A stretch of DNA of 64,000 nt from Deltaproteobacteria bacterium (lineage in GTDB: Bacteria > Desulfobacterota > Syntrophia > Syntrophales > Smithellaceae): positions 69,691 to 133,690 of the forward strand of contig JAAYDW010000056.1 in the NCBI GenBank assembly GCA_012729055.1, in the 5' to 3' direction. The notes beneath the pieces were generated by a model that was not told the DNA's origin, searched no databases, and saw only the letters and a list, made by a program, of their open reading frames with translations. Position numbers and translations under genes: made by a program. Positions 34,346 through 40,202 of this stretch are shown here, one piece after another (position 1 is the stretch's first letter; every line of letters begins with the position of its first letter).

Positions 34346-35293
34346 ATGGACGGGATCGTGGTGATTGACAAGCCGGCCGGGTATTCGTCCCACGACGTCG
34401 TGAGCGAAGTGAAGAAGATACTGGGCGTCCGGAAGGCGGGACATACCGGAACGCTCGATCCGCTGGCAACCGGCGTGCTGCCGGTTTGCGTGGGCGAGGC
34501 GACCAAGCTGGCTCAGTTCTTGACCGCACAGCGCAAAACCTATCTGGCCACCATGCTGCTGGGAGTCGAGACCGATACGCAGGATACGGAAGGGCAGGTG
34601 ACCGAGACATCGGACCGGCAGGCGCCGGAAGAAGACATCCGGCAGGCGCTGGGACGGCTGGTGGGCCGGATCCGGCAGGTGCCGCCGGCCTATTCGGCGC
34701 TTAAATACAAAGGGAAACCTTTGTACCGGTACGCCCGGGCCGGAGAGTTTCCGGAAATTGCGGCGCGGGAGGTGGAAATTTTCGCGCTCGATGTGAAGAG
34801 CATCGTTTATCCGTACGTGACGTTTGAAATTTCCTGCTCGAAAGGCACGTACATCCGGACGGTCTGTTTGGATGCCGGCAGGATGCTGGGCTGCGGAGCG
34901 TGTCTGGCGGGACTGCGCCGTCTTAGGAGCGGTTCCTTTACGGAAGAGATGGCCGTGGCTTTGGAAAAGAAGCCGTCCACGGCGCAGAAAGAGGACCTTG
35001 TCGCCCGGCTGCTGCCGATGGCCCGGCTGCTGCCCGATATGCCGGCCATAGAAATCGATGAAGCACTGGCCGGCCGGATCCGGGCCGGCGTTCAGCCGGA
35101 TGCGGGAACGCTGCGGAAAAATGTTCTTCCTTTTCTTGCGGCGGGAGATGTGATAAAGTTTATTCTTCCTGATGGTGATCTGGTGGCTGTGGCAGAGATG
35201 CTGATGCCGGCCGACGCGCTGGCCGGTCAGGACGACAAAGCTCAGGCAGCCAGAATCCTGAGGGTATTAAAGAGAACGACACAGAATAACTGA
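34346..35293 (+). CDS. truB: tRNA pseudouridine-55 synthase
   Basis: 315 residues. The catalytic Asp38 is in HTGTLDPLATGVLPVC, preceded by the N-terminal MDGIVVIDKPAGYSSHDVV. Later motifs include QVPPAYSALKYKGKPLYRYAR and SCSKGTYIRTVC. It makes pseudouridine 55 in the T-loop of tRNAs. It starts six bases after nrnA and is followed 37 bases later by rpsO. A C-terminal PUA-like extension completes the usual bacterial length. Confidence 0.96.
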   Translation: MDGIVVIDKPAGYSSHDVVSEVKKILGVRKAGHTGTLDPLATGVLPVCVGEATKLAQFLTAQRKTYLATMLLGVETDTQDTEGQVTETSDRQAPEEDIRQALGRLVGRIRQVPPAYSALKYKGKPLYRYARAGEFPEIAAREVEIFALDVKSIVYPYVTFEISCSKGTYIRTVCLDAGRMLGCGACLAGLRRLRSGSFTEEMAVALEKKPSTAQKEDLVARLLPMARLLPDMPAIEIDEALAGRIRAGVQPDAGTLRKNVLPFLAAGDVIKFILPDGDLVAVAEMLMPADALAGQDDKAQAARILRVLKRTTQNN

Positions 35294-35330: not shown

Positions 35331-35597
35331 GTGTTAACTGTTGAAAAAAGAAAGGCATTAATCGAGGATTACCGGCTTCACGAAAAAGATACCGGATCCC
35401 CGGAGGTACAAATTGCTCTTTTGAGCGCCAGAATTGAATACCTGACGGAGCATTTCAAGGCGCATCAGAAAGACCATCATTCCCGGCGCGGTCTGTTGAA
35501 GCTCGTCGGGCAGAGGAGAAGGTTGCTCAATTACATCAAAGAAGACGATGTGGAGCGTTATCGTAACATAATCAAACGTCTGGGCCTCAGGAAATAA
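35331..35597 (+). CDS. rpsO: 30S ribosomal protein S15
   Basis: 88 residues, the exact family length. Phrases such as [16 protein letters not shown] and [21 protein letters not shown] identify S15, which binds 16S rRNA helices 20-22 early in 30S assembly. The start is GTG at 35331 with a strong GGGAGG site. In E. coli S15 represses its own translation and rpsO is co-transcribed with pnp; the same order is kept here with a long RNA duplex between the two. Confidence 0.97.
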
Positions 35598-35605
35598 CGA
35601 AAGCC

Positions 35606-35693
35606 ATTCAAGGGCGGAAGGCAAAAGGATTCCCGATTGGACACGTATTGATCGCTGCCTGCGTCAGTCGGCTTTTGCGTTTCGCCCTTGAAT
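35606..35693 (+). promoter_or_regulatory. Long RNA duplex between rpsO and pnp (probable RNase III site)
   Basis: Arms 35606-35627 and 35672-35693 pair over 22 positions: 20 Watson-Crick, one G-T and one G-G mismatch. After a five-base bulge, a second stem, 35633-35639 with 35665-35671, adds seven pairs. This dsRNA lies eight bases after the rpsO stop and 141 bases before pnp. In E. coli a duplex in the same place is cut by RNase III and lets PNPase repress its own synthesis. The strand after the stem (AATTTGTC) is not a strong T-run, so processing is likelier than termination. Confidence 0.75.
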
Positions 35694-35833
35694 TTGTCTG
35701 TGCGCCTGTTTTTTGCAAATACGGGCGCGCGCCGCAATGTTCCATGGAAGTTGAAGGGTTTCCGCAGCTTGCCGCGGGAGTCTTTCCTTTCCTGTTCCGG
35801 ACAACAACAACCTAACAAGGTGGAGGAAATTTA

Positions 35834-37954
35834 ATGAGTAATGTATTTAGTACAGATTTCGCTGGGCGAAATTTTACAATCAAAACCAATTACGTAGCCG
35901 CGCAGGCGGATGGGTCCACGCTGGTCTATTACGGGGACACCGTGGTGCTGGTGACGGCCGTTTCTTTGAAAAGCGTGAGAGAGGGCGTCGATTTTCTGCC
36001 GCTCACCGTGGATTATCAGGAAATGACTTTTGCCGCCGGCAAAATTCCCGGCGGTTTTTTCAAGCGGGAAGGGCGGCCCAACGAGCGTGAAATTTTAACG
36101 TCGCGCATCATCGACCGGGCGATTCGTCCCCTGTTCCCCAAAGGCTATTATTCGGAAACCCAGATGGTGGCGACGCTGCTGTCGATGGACAAGGAAAACG
36201 ACGCGGATGTCGCGGCCATGATCGGCGCGTCCGCCGCGCTCGGGATATCCGACATTCCGTTCAAGGGGCCGATCGCCGGCGTGCGCGTCGGCCGGATCAA
36301 CGGCGAACTGGTCGCCAATGCGTCCGCGGAAAAAATGCAGGAAAGCGAAATGAACCTCTTTTTGGTGGGACGCAAGGTCACACCGAGCCGGTCGGGCCGT
36401 CCCTATGACGTGGAACTGGTGATGATGGAAGGCGAAGCCAAGGAAGCGCCGGAAGACGTCATTGTCGATGCCATCAAATTCGGTCTGGAAGCCGTTCGTC
36501 CGGTGATCGATCTGCAGGATCAGGTGCGGAAGCAGGTCGGCAGGGCCAAGCGGTCGGTGGAAGAAGAAACGCCGGACGAGGCGTTCATCGCGCGCATCCG
36601 CGAGGCGGCTCTGCCGGGGCTCAAGGAAGGCTACGGCATGCCGCGCAAACTGGAGCGCTACGCCAAACTGGCCGAGGTGCGGGAATCGGTAATCAAGAGC
36701 ATCAGTGACGGAGACGCGGCTCTCGCCAAGAAAGTGGCGTCGGTCATCGAACATCTGGAATCGCGCATTCTGCGGGACATGATCCTGCTGGAAAAGAAGA
36801 GAATCGACGGCCGCTTGTCGACCGAGATCCGCCCGATCAGTTCGGAAGTCGGCGTGCTGCCGCGCGCCCACGGATCGGCTCTCTTCAACCGCGGAGAAAC
36901 GCAGGCGCTGACCGCGCTCACCCTGGGAACCTCCTCGGATGAACAGCGCATGGACTACGTCAGCGGCGAGGAACACCGCTCCTTCCTGCTGCATTATAAT
37001 TTTCCGCCTTACAGCGTGGGCGAAGCCAAGTCGCTTCGGTCGCCCGGTCGCAGGGAAATCGGCCACGGCGCGCTGGCGCGCAAGGCGCTGGTTCCCGTGC
37101 TTCCGCCGCCGGAGCAGTTTCCCTACACGATCCGGATCGTTTCCGAGATTCTCTCCTCCAACGGCTCGTCCTCAATGGCGACGGTGTGCGGCGGCATTCT
37201 GTGTCTGATGGACGGCGGCGTGCCGGTGCGGGATATCGTCGCGGGCATTGCCATGGGGCTGCTCAAGGAAGGCGACGACGTCGTCATTCTGTCCGACATT
37301 CTGGGCGATGAAGACCATGCCGGCGATATGGACTTCAAGGTCTGCGGAACGGAGAAAGGCGTCACCGCCATGCAGATGGATATCAAGATCGACGGCCTGA
37401 CGGAGGACATCCTGCGCAAGGCGTTGGCCCAGGCCCGTGACGGCCGCCTGTTCATCATCGGCAAGATTCGTGAAACCCTGTCCGCGCCGCGTTCGGATAT
37501 TTCGCTCTATGCGCCGCGCATCACCACCGTCAAGGTGAAGGAAGACCAGGTGCGCACCGTCATCGGCTCCGGCGGAAAGAACATCCGCCAGATCATCAGC
37601 GAGACCGGCGTCACCATCGACGTGGAAGACGACGGGACGGTGACGATTGCGTCCGCCGACGCCGAAGCGGCGGCCCGTGCCGTGGCGATGGTCAAGTGGC
37701 TTACCGAAGAAGCGGAAGTCGGCAAGATTTACCGCGGCACCGTCAAGAAAATCGTCGATTTCGGCGCGTTTGTCGAAATTCTTCCCGGAACGGAAGGCCT
37801 GCTGCACATTTCGCAGATCGCCAAGGAAAGAATCGCCAAGGTCACGGATGTTCTGCAGGAAGGCGACGAAGTCATGGTCAAAGTGTTGGAAGTGGACAAA
37901 CAGGGCAAAATCCGTCTCAGCCGGAAAGAAGCGCTGGGCGCGGAAATCAAGTAG
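35834..37954 (+). CDS. pnp: Polyribonucleotide nucleotidyltransferase (PNPase)
   Basis: 706 residues, normal length. Two RNase PH domains (about 10-230 and 315-545) flank the helical linker. A KH domain ([20 protein letters not shown]) and an S1 domain ([23 protein letters not shown]) complete it. It degrades RNA 3'-to-5' by phosphorolysis and is part of the RNA degradosome in many bacteria. The start has a perfect GGAGG seven to eight bases upstream. An imperfect-tail hairpin follows the stop. Confidence 0.97.
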
Positions 37955-38549: not shown

Positions 38550-39725
38550 ATGAAAAAATTCAAAGTTAAAAAGACTTTTCAGGAAATCAACGAAAAGATC
38601 AAAAAAGGGTGCGCGGTGGTCGTCACCGCCGAGGAAATGATCGATGTGGTGGAACGTCACGGAGAGGTCGAGGCGGCCCGCCGCATCGATGTCGTCACGA
38701 CCGGAACCTTCGGCGCGATGTGCTCCTCGGGCGCCTTTCTGAATTTCGGCCATACGGCGCCGCGCATTCGGGCGTCCCGCGTCTGGCTCAACGACGTGCC
38801 CGCCTACGGCGGCATTGCGGCGGTCGACTGCTATCTGGGCGCGACGGAAGTCGTCGAGGGCGACCCGCAAAACAGCGTGTATCCCGGCGAATTCAATTAC
38901 GGCGGCGGTCACGTGATCGAAGATCTGGTGTCCGGCAACGTCGTCAAATTGCGTGCCGAGGGATACGGGACGGATTGTTATCCGGCGCGCAAATTCGAGA
39001 AAAACATCACCATCAACGACTTGCGGGACGCCTTCCTGTTCAATCCGCGCAACGCCTATCAAAACTATAATTGCGCCGTGAACCTCTCCGACACGACGAT
39101 TTACACTTACATGGGCATTCTGCGTCCGCGCATGGCCAACGCATCTTACGCGACGTCAGGCCAGCTCAGTCCCCTGTTCAACGATCCCTACTACCGGACG
39201 ATCGGCGTCGGAACGCGGATCTTCCTGGGCGGCGCCCAGGGCTTTGTCGCCTGGCCGGGCACACAGCACAATCCCCACGCGGCCAGGTCCGCGAACGGCG
39301 TTCCCAAGGAAGGGGCGGGCACTCTGGCGGTGATCGGCAACCTGAAGGAGATGAGCCCCGAGTGGCTCACAGGCGCCAGCATCTTAGGATACGGTGTTTC
39401 TTTGTTTGTCGGCATCGGCATTCCCATTCCCATTCTCGATGAAGAAATGGCCCGCTACACCGCCGTCCGGGATGCGGATATCTACGCCCAAGTGTACGAT
39501 TACAGCATGGACTATCCCAAGGGCAATCCCAAGCCCGTCGCGGAAGTGAGTTACGGGGATTTACGCAGCGGTTCGGTGATGATCGACAATAAAAAAGTGA
39601 TTACTGCGCCCTTATCCAGTTATTACAAGGCCGGCCAGATTGCCAATCTGCTGAAGGACTGGATTGAAGGCGGCAAATTTCTCCTCGGCGAACCGCAGCA
39701 GAATCTTCCTTCCATCCCTTTTTGA
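38550..39725 (+). CDS. DUF39 homocysteine-biosynthesis / sulfur-transfer protein
   Basis: 391 residues of the DUF39 (COG1900) family. The archaeal member MA1821 converts aspartate semialdehyde to homocysteine using sulfide, with a ferredoxin-type partner. Conserved-looking Cys are at 58 (MCSSGAF), 94, 143 (GTDCYPARKF) and 174; Cys58 and Cys143 are the likeliest catalytic pair. No CBS domain is attached and no partner ferredoxin gene is adjacent. The ribosome site is weak. It suits an anaerobe that assimilates sulfide directly (inference). Confidence 0.85.
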   Translation: MKKFKVKKTFQEINEKIKKGCAVVVTAEEMIDVVERHGEVEAARRIDVVTTGTFGAMCSSGAFLNFGHTAPRIRASRVWLNDVPAYGGIAAVDCYLGATEVVEGDPQNSVYPGEFNYGGGHVIEDLVSGNVVKLRAEGYGTDCYPARKFEKNITINDLRDAFLFNPRNAYQNYNCAVNLSDTTIYTYMGILRPRMANASYATSGQLSPLFNDPYYRTIGVGTRIFLGGAQGFVAWPGTQHNPHAARSANGVPKEGAGTLAVIGNLKEMSPEWLTGASILGYGVSLFVGIGIPIPILDEEMARYTAVRDADIYAQVYDYSMDYPKGNPKPVAEVSYGDLRSGSVMIDNKKVITAPLSSYYKAGQIANLLKDWIEGGKFLLGEPQQNLPSIPF

Positions 39726-39815: not shown

Positions 39816-40004
39816 ATCACATAAATATCCTTTTTGCTTAATGTTTTGAAAAAAGAGATCGACAAATTTTTTGTGACGGCATATTATCACAGCGTAGATT
39901 AATTAATATTAATTAATCTTAATAATTGTTAATATTTTTCTTGACAATTTCCATTACTTGTAGTTTTTTGGAGCCAAACAGTAAAGGAATTGCTTTAAGT
40001 CTTT
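39816..40004 (+). promoter_or_regulatory. AT-rich control region ahead of the XRE regulator gene
   Basis: A stretch far richer in A+T than its surroundings. It contains TGTGA (39872-39876) and TCACA (39887-39891) as an inverted repeat with a 10-base spacer, a perfect 24-bp AT palindrome (39896-39919, half-site AGATTAATTAAT), and a TTGACA box at 39941-39946 with only a poor -10 candidate. No gene is seen here. It probably holds the promoter and operators of the downstream regulator gene. Confidence 0.6.
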
Positions 40005-40202
40005 ATGGAAAATATCAAGAAAAATAGAGTAAAAAAGTATCGAGAGTCCATTCCGCTCAGCATTTCCGAGCTGGCCCGTAAGGCGGGATTAACGCCGCAG
40101 ACAGTGGCCAAAATGGAAAAAGGATTGCCCACGAGAAAAAACTCTGAGTTAAAGGTAGCCAAGGCCCTGCAAAAATCACACGAAGACGTCTTCCCGCAAT
40201 AG
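40005..40202 (+). CDS. Small XRE-family helix-turn-helix regulator
   Basis: 65 residues, essentially one DNA-binding domain. The helix-turn-helix is in SISELARKAGLTPQTVAKMEKG (about 19-40), followed by a helix LKVAKALQKSHEDVF. No effector or dimerisation domain is attached. It sits directly downstream of the AT-rich palindromic region and 46 bases before the FtsB-like gene on the same strand. It could autoregulate through the palindrome or control the pil genes that follow (inference). Confidence 0.85.
   Translation: MENIKKNRVKKYRESIPLSISELARKAGLTPQTVAKMEKGLPTRKNSELKVAKALQKSHEDVFPQ

Follow-up and report, generated by a model that had tools for sequence, protein, structure and literature searches.

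In Escherichia coli, RNase III cuts the rpsO-pnp intergenic gap and thereby destabilises the pnp message, and loss of rnc raises PNPase, as described in three reports (PMC9032294, PMC8708148, PMC5371410). The same gap contains the rpsO terminator and the pnp promoter, according to PMC5872136. An intergenic hairpin is also cut by RNase III in Streptomyces coelicolor, where loss of rnc lifts PNPase 2–4 fold; the cut falls in an internal loop in that species and just below one in E. coli (PMC10126417). RNase III sites of E. coli share no strong consensus, according to PMC8708148 (citing Altuvia et al. 2018) and PMC5371410. Among catalogued structures, Actino-pnp (RF01688), a motif named after pnp, was reported from Actinomycetales in 2010 and is marked as cis-regulatory (PMC2864571).

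The hairpin considered here lies in the rpsO-pnp gap of a Smithellaceae genome, inside a 64-kb window (the whole stretch of DNA that was analysed) in which infB, rbfA, a DHH-type gene, truB, rpsO, and pnp follow one another in one direction. NCBIfam identified rbfA, the upstream, co-directional truB (34346..35293, + strand; TIGR00431), rpsO (ribosomal protein S15, 88 aa, GTG start; 35331..35597, + strand; TIGR00952, 134.4 bits, cut-off 63.65), and pnp (polynucleotide phosphorylase, 706 aa; 35834..37954, + strand; NF008805, 980.1 bits); the names infB and DHH-type are presumed from the translations. The encoded PNPase is full-length, with two RNase PH domains, a KH domain, and an S1 domain (Pfam), and the Shine-Dalgarno region of its gene was read from the sequence as GGAGGAAA (35822..35829, + strand). 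The gene identities on both flanks confirmed where the first-pass annotation had placed the hairpin, and rnc, which that annotation had left to be looked up, is encoded in the genome (TIGR02191, 253.7 bits). A csrA match was also detected (73.4 bits, cut-off 70.1), with one stop in the matched stretch.

The lower stem of the hairpin is formed by two 22-nt arms on the + strand, a 5' arm at 35606..35627 (ATTCAAGGGCGGAAGGCAAAAG, with the nearly frozen core AAGGGCGGAAGGCA) and a 3' arm at 35672..35693 (CTTTTGCGTTTCGCCCTTGAAT, with the nearly frozen core TGCGTTTCGCCCTT), the cores being defined in a 36-sequence alignment (A3). The arms make 20 Watson-Crick pairs, and two conserved irregularities lie at 35617..35620 (+ strand), where G35617 wobbles with U35682 and G35620 faces G35679 as a mismatch. 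Above a five-base bulge on the 5' side (35628..35632, + strand), the sequence of which varies within the genus, folding predicts an upper stem of seven pairs, including a single U·G, between CCGATTG (35633..35639, + strand) and CAGTCGG (35665..35671, + strand), and this is capped by an apical part (35640..35664, + strand) that varies in sequence and length among relatives. The whole hairpin comprises 28 pairs and one mismatch, so that the earlier description of a 29-bp interrupted duplex is a fair one if the mismatch is counted; the arm length, the single mismatch (G·G), the single wobble (G·U), and the seven further pairs over the bulge all stood as first described.

Spacing on the upstream side was constant, with 4–9 nt between the rpsO stop and the stem in all 36 aligned sequences. 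On the downstream side, the stem was followed by the pnp start after 37–45 nt in 30 of the 36 and after 140–166 nt in the other six. In the window this extra sequence (~95 nt; 35694..35788, + strand) runs from the hairpin to the ribosome-binding region, contains two weaker hairpins, and includes a terminator-like site at 35753–35786. Extra sequence of ~95–125 nt directly after the stem was shared by six of the 36 distinct hairpins (the window, L007, L009, L017, L020, and L042); those of L007, L009, and L017 resemble each other, and the remainder show no clear resemblance. Masking of the pnp Shine-Dalgarno sequence by bases after the stem was seen in several folds from one genus (g1) but was absent in another (g6; L037, L054, L055), and was rejected as a general feature (throughout, genera carry g-numbers and families of the order f-numbers, with f1 denoting Smithellaceae, a name taken from record titles).

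A list of inverted repeats in the 64-kb window contained three with 22-nt arms (within 120 nt), and the rpsO-pnp hairpin was among the two at 91% complementarity. The fold of 141 nt around it had a z-score of -2.95 (2 of 200 shuffles were equally good), and that of the whole gap a z-score of -3.1; when the 236-nt gap was shuffled 100 times, 12 of the shuffled sequences equalled or exceeded its helix in length by a lax measure, which counts against a non-chance origin. Conservation decides the matter: the hairpin is judged from sequence comparison not to be a chance fold, because it was held in 19 of 19 readable gaps of the same genus (rpsO was located in 19 of 20 genomes) and in 41 of 46 readable gaps of the family. 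An rpsO match was found in 47 of 51 Smithellaceae genomes, one of them a fragment (G050), and the hairpin motif was called from anchors with at most two substitutions each. The five Smithellaceae gaps that lacked the motif (L033, L048, L050, L051, L057) all belong to genus g7, and one of them (L033, genome G048) gave weak covariance-model matches at the same place (23.7 and 28.2 bits).

The hairpin appeared to be confined to this family and to a single genomic position. A covariance model built from the hairpin sequences (R2), run with strict filters over 155 genomes of the class, matched 41 of 51 Smithellaceae genomes (E <= 3.6e-15) at one place each, beside rpsO, as is expected by construction, and under the same filters gave no second hairpin locus in these 41 genomes. 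Both strands matched at each place because the element is nearly palindromic. Outside Smithellaceae the model gave only weak matches (E >= 2e-6; G061, G062, G087–G091, G114, G116, G139), none of them at rpsO by coordinates. An exact strict pattern, searched in one genome per species (84,980 species), returned 37 loci, of which 36 were rpsO-pnp gaps in records named Smithella, Smithellaceae, Syntrophaceae, or delta(proteo)bacterium; the 37th was from Hongsoonwoonella (L149), with rpsO absent from its 8 kb. The pattern loci come largely from the same assemblies as the family survey and added no new hairpin, so the two counts are not independent. Pattern and model searches both placed the element once per genome, at pnp. 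A dispersed repeat or mobile palindrome was rejected as an explanation, since elsewhere in its own genome the hairpin gave only short, chance-like matches and each of the 41 Smithellaceae genomes matched by the model, under its strict filters, carried it at one place.

Alignment A3 holds 36 distinct hairpin sequences of 86 to 91 nt in 92 columns (L008, L011, L015, L035, and L136 were omitted as identical to others, and L006 was merged with L005). Across the 21 lower pairs, 96.8% of cells were paired, compared with 93.7% after shuffling, and pairing fell to 56.0% or less when one arm was slid along the other. Compensatory changes, for which the first-pass annotation had proposed to look in relatives, were present: 5 of the 21 pairs had changed on both sides (8 of 500 shuffles were as high), and 19 cells were doubly changed (0 of 500 as high, with shuffles that ignore relatedness). 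They sit at the stem base (columns 1, 3, and 4) and in the upper part of the lower stem, where A-U to U-A swaps occurred between columns 19 and 74 in 10 sequences and between columns 20 and 73 in 5. Given these changes at the stem base and upper pairs, we take selection to act on the RNA pairing of the hairpin.

Our preferred reading, to which we assign a probability of roughly 0.58, is that RNase III would process the message at this hairpin as part of a feedback by PNPase on pnp, with both the cutting and the feedback suggested by analogy. It is considered likeliest because of the position of the hairpin, the length of the helix, its internal irregularities, the presence of rnc, and the KH and S1 domains of the PNPase; the position and gene order also match those of E. 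coli. Transcription would read through into pnp from the upstream genes, as suggested by the gene order and by a consensus scan that found no promoter-like site on either strand between 35200 and 35900 (0.7 expected by chance). The RNA would fold into a long helix, as the compensatory changes support, and RNase III would cut it, likeliest within the stretch of seven pairs that separates the bulge from the G·purine mismatch if E. coli is a guide. Such a cut would part the rpsO message from the pnp message and leave the pnp 5' leader still paired, via the lower stem, to the upstream 3' tail. PNPase would then strip this tail, exposing its own leader and making its own message shorter-lived, a negative feedback. 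Work by Jarrige et al. from 2001 is said to have found that PNPase degrades the double-stranded structure in its leader, and the pnp message of E. coli, once processed, is reportedly a target of CsrA (attributed to Park et al., 2015).

The proposal in the first-pass annotation that the E. coli control scheme is kept here despite unrelated sequence gained from the position of the hairpin, the presence of rnc, the compensatory changes, and the single place at pnp. The element belongs to Smithellaceae and not to Syntrophales as a whole; the other sampled families have unrelated long hairpins or no strong one. We compared 106 readable gaps, 46 from Smithellaceae and 60 from 20 other families, the latter hand-picked (1–9 per family) from 97 genomes outside Smithellaceae with an rpsO match. 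A strong hairpin, defined as a helix of at least 16 pairs with z <= -2.4 (limits set after the values were known), was present in 58 of the 106: f1 41/46, f2 1/2, f3 2/2, f6 1/2, f11 1/2, f12 3/3, and f19 9/9. It was absent from 14 of the 21 families, each represented by 1–7 gaps. The hairpins outside Smithellaceae were, by eye, unlike the Smithellaceae hairpin in sequence. Twelve gaps stood outside the count; six of these, from f19 (L210, L212, L213, L219–L221), fold long hairpins, and the further uncounted gaps L214–L217 (24–43 nt) have none. A long duplex in the rpsO-pnp gap is common yet dispensable across the order. Since the long hairpins found at this spot elsewhere in the order are unlike that of Smithellaceae, such a duplex may have arisen there more than once; those of f12 (3/3) and f19 (9/9) also lend support to the RNase III reading.

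Several of the hairpins in other families had features of their own. Those in the f19 gaps (L100–L108, L210, L212, L213, L219–L221) and in L067 and L060 are apparently composed, by eye, of seven-base units, for example AGTAGGA/AGTAAGG and GTTCARA. The two f3 gaps (L061, L062) carry long hairpins of unlike sequence; the helix of L062 has 29 pairs and perhaps resembles a mobile palindrome.

The lack of association between hairpin and rnc across the order counts against the RNase III reading. Among the 106 gaps, 53 had both, 43 rnc only, 5 the hairpin only, and 5 neither (Fisher p 0.75, with apparent absence of rnc blurred by fragmented MAGs), and in a 20-row tree the rnc-less label did not cluster (252 of 500 shuffles were as low). 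Three further f19 genomes (G128, G134, G137) likewise fold long hairpins but gave no rnc match, and in G005 (68% complete) and G043 (92%) the hairpin was present and an rnc match absent; G049 showed the reverse. Within g7, four genomes (G045, G046, G047, G050; MAGs 84–95% complete) had no rnc match, and all three of their readable gaps were without the hairpin. Neither era (E 1e-40) nor der (E 1e-60) was found in these four, whereas rnc, era, and der lie together in G044, G048, and G049. Because era and der are missing alongside rnc, a shared MAG assembly gap is indistinguishable here from loss of a usually essential gene block, and the absence could be either. Elsewhere, the G051 (f2) contig with radical-SAM and era genes carries no rnc and this genome lacks the hairpin, its congener G052 has rnc and a 17-bp hairpin, and in G068 a contig end cuts the place where rnc would be sought.

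Pairing does not exhaust the conservation of the stem. As judged from the aligned letters, the lower-stem core is nearly invariant beyond the need for pairing, which the first-pass annotation had not foreseen. Scarcely any variation occurred in columns 5–14 with 79–88, and 25 of the 92 columns were invariant over the aligned sequences. Between genera (428 sequence pairs), the core (columns 5–18 and 75–88) was 96.6% identical, a value somewhat inflated by motif-picked sequences (at most two substitutions per anchor) and by the omission of five g7 gaps. By comparison, identity between genera was 88.5% for the whole lower stem, 38.3% for columns 23–70 (bulge, upper stem, and apex), 43.4% at fourfold sites of rpsO, and 40.0% at those of pnp (up to its first 200 codons). 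The two irregularities were also conserved, with the wobble G·U in 35 of 36 sequences (A-U in one) and the mismatch G·purine in all 36 (30 with G·G, 6 with G·A). The upper part differed by genus: a five-base bulge with seven to eight pairs was found in g1, g3, g5, and one g7 sequence (A4), and a different arrangement with a two-base bulge in g6 (A5).

This freezing exceeds what the RNase III reading needs, given that RNase III sites are without a strong consensus, and it is the ground for a sequence-specific RNA operator, in which a protein would recognise the frozen core, including the G·U and G·purine positions, and control pnp (or rpsO), RNase III cutting being secondary or absent. We consider this doubtful as a replacement for the RNase III reading. 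In addition to the excess of core identity over fourfold sites, it is favoured by the retention of a G·U that a single mutation would turn into a Watson-Crick pair, by the invariably G·purine mismatch, and by the much lesser fixation of the f19 gaps, the only other family measured, where identity over 66 pairs from 12 gaps was 66.0% against a fourfold-site value of 56.7% (a whole-gap measure that differs from the core measure used for Smithellaceae). However, a reader protein has to be postulated, and core identity was raised by motif picking and by leaving out 5 of the 46 gaps. Candidate readers are an RNase III with unusual specificity, PNPase, S15, or another factor. Mimicry of the S15 site in 16S rRNA was tried and rejected, as neither arm beat 60 shuffled arms on partial 16S sequences (L157, L158; 16S was found, incomplete, in two of six genomes), and control by S15 through mimicry gains no support from this comparison. 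A narrower version, which we consider less likely than not, is that the lower stem may be an operator of ~14 columns in which G·U and G·purine are obligatory, recognised either by a dedicated protein or by a sequence-specific RNase III of this family; if true, a loosely specified RNase III site would have become a letter-exact RNA switch for PNPase in one bacterial family. Core freezing may also be less unusual for pnp hairpins than it looks. Under the RNase III reading, the frozen core, wobble and mismatch included, would probably set the cut site and strand, or alternatively the stability or recognition of the duplex left for PNPase.

That the stem begins within 4–9 nt of the rpsO stop, and that at least five T occur within 8 nt after it in 15 of 36 sequences, could also be expected if it were the 3' end or stabiliser of the truB-rpsO message, formed by partial termination or a nearby cut and having no feedback role. 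We regard this as improbable: the longest T run of the tail is only 2 (13 sequences), 3 (20), or 4 (3) of the 36, the frozen sequence is needless for an ordinary terminator, and the 37–45 nt before the pnp start in 30 of 36 sequences leave so little promoter room that pnp must in large part be transcribed by readthrough. The terminator scan made no call at the stem, but its loops are limited to 3–8 nt and it could hardly have called it. The T counts also weigh against the RNase III reading, since some termination may occur at the stem. The nearly frozen arm letters would likewise suit a DNA element in which the arms are the palindromic operator of a DNA-binding protein, which is nonetheless very improbable in light of the compensatory changes, of arm centres ~66 nt apart (a broad spacing for a single dimer site), and of helical phasing that is not kept, because hairpin lengths range between 86 and 91 nt. 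An antisense RNA from the opposite strand, modelled on SraG in the E. coli rpsO-pnp gap, earns very little credence, as neither strand has a promoter-like site in the scan reported above (consensus only, 0.7 expected by chance) and a SraG match is absent from the window stretch and eight related loci.

Two further observations concern the window downstream of pnp. A second pair of 22-nt arms (39933–39954 and 40005–40026) is 91% complementary and 50 nt apart; its 3' arm begins with the start codon (ATG) for an HTH_3 protein of 65 aa (40005–40199, stop excluded), and its 5' arm contains TTGACA. Because of these two placements, the arms may form an operator or a start-codon-masking hairpin. The window also encodes a homocysteine biosynthesis enzyme family protein (38550–39725; HcyBio, Pfam 523.3 bits), which has an NCBIfam match to methanogenesis marker 16 below the cut-off.

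We compared the Smithellaceae hairpin with catalogued RNA families. Rfam families gave no match in the window stretch, and eight related Smithellaceae loci scored far below gathering thresholds; a mir-30 match on the L047 hairpin (22.7 bits, gathering 50.2) was taken as chance. The Actino-pnp covariance model (RF01688) had no match in these nine stretches at E up to 1, and SraG (RF00082), which lies in the same gap on the opposite strand in E. coli, was found only in the E. coli locus (L156), where the same search returned SraG and the S15 leader. Open-licence literature yielded nothing on Smithella with PNPase or on Syntrophus with polynucleotide phosphorylase, and the hairpin was undescribed in the excerpts of the matches listed for open-licence work on rpsO, pnp, and RNase III structure.

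Among described systems, the E. coli site is alike in occupying the same gap with a long interrupted hairpin (gap fold z -6.0) in a genome with rnc, PNPase, and csrA, of which matches exist here too, but its sequence is unlike that of the Smithellaceae hairpin. The E. coli arrangement of an rpsO terminator and a pnp promoter ahead of the hairpin, inessential to the mechanism, was not found here; with 4–9 nt from stop to stem, a comparable pnp promoter would lie inside rpsO or further up. The S. coelicolor hairpin, from another phylum, differs in its [4/4] internal loop and four promoters, in place of which the Smithellaceae hairpin has a bulge on one side together with a G·purine mismatch. On the assumption that the Streptomyces rpsO-pnp hairpin is the Actino-pnp motif, we note that Actino-pnp is similarly a pnp-named structure found in one taxon. 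Smithellaceae would be a further lineage, beside gammaproteobacteria and actinomycetes, with a conserved structure just upstream of pnp, and its frozen core, in which wobble and mismatch are fixed, could be used to ask if bacterial RNase III or PNPase recognises sequence besides shape. Most likely, the hairpin represents a known kind of pnp control in a form that we did not find catalogued, with Actino-pnp as the closest catalogued kind.
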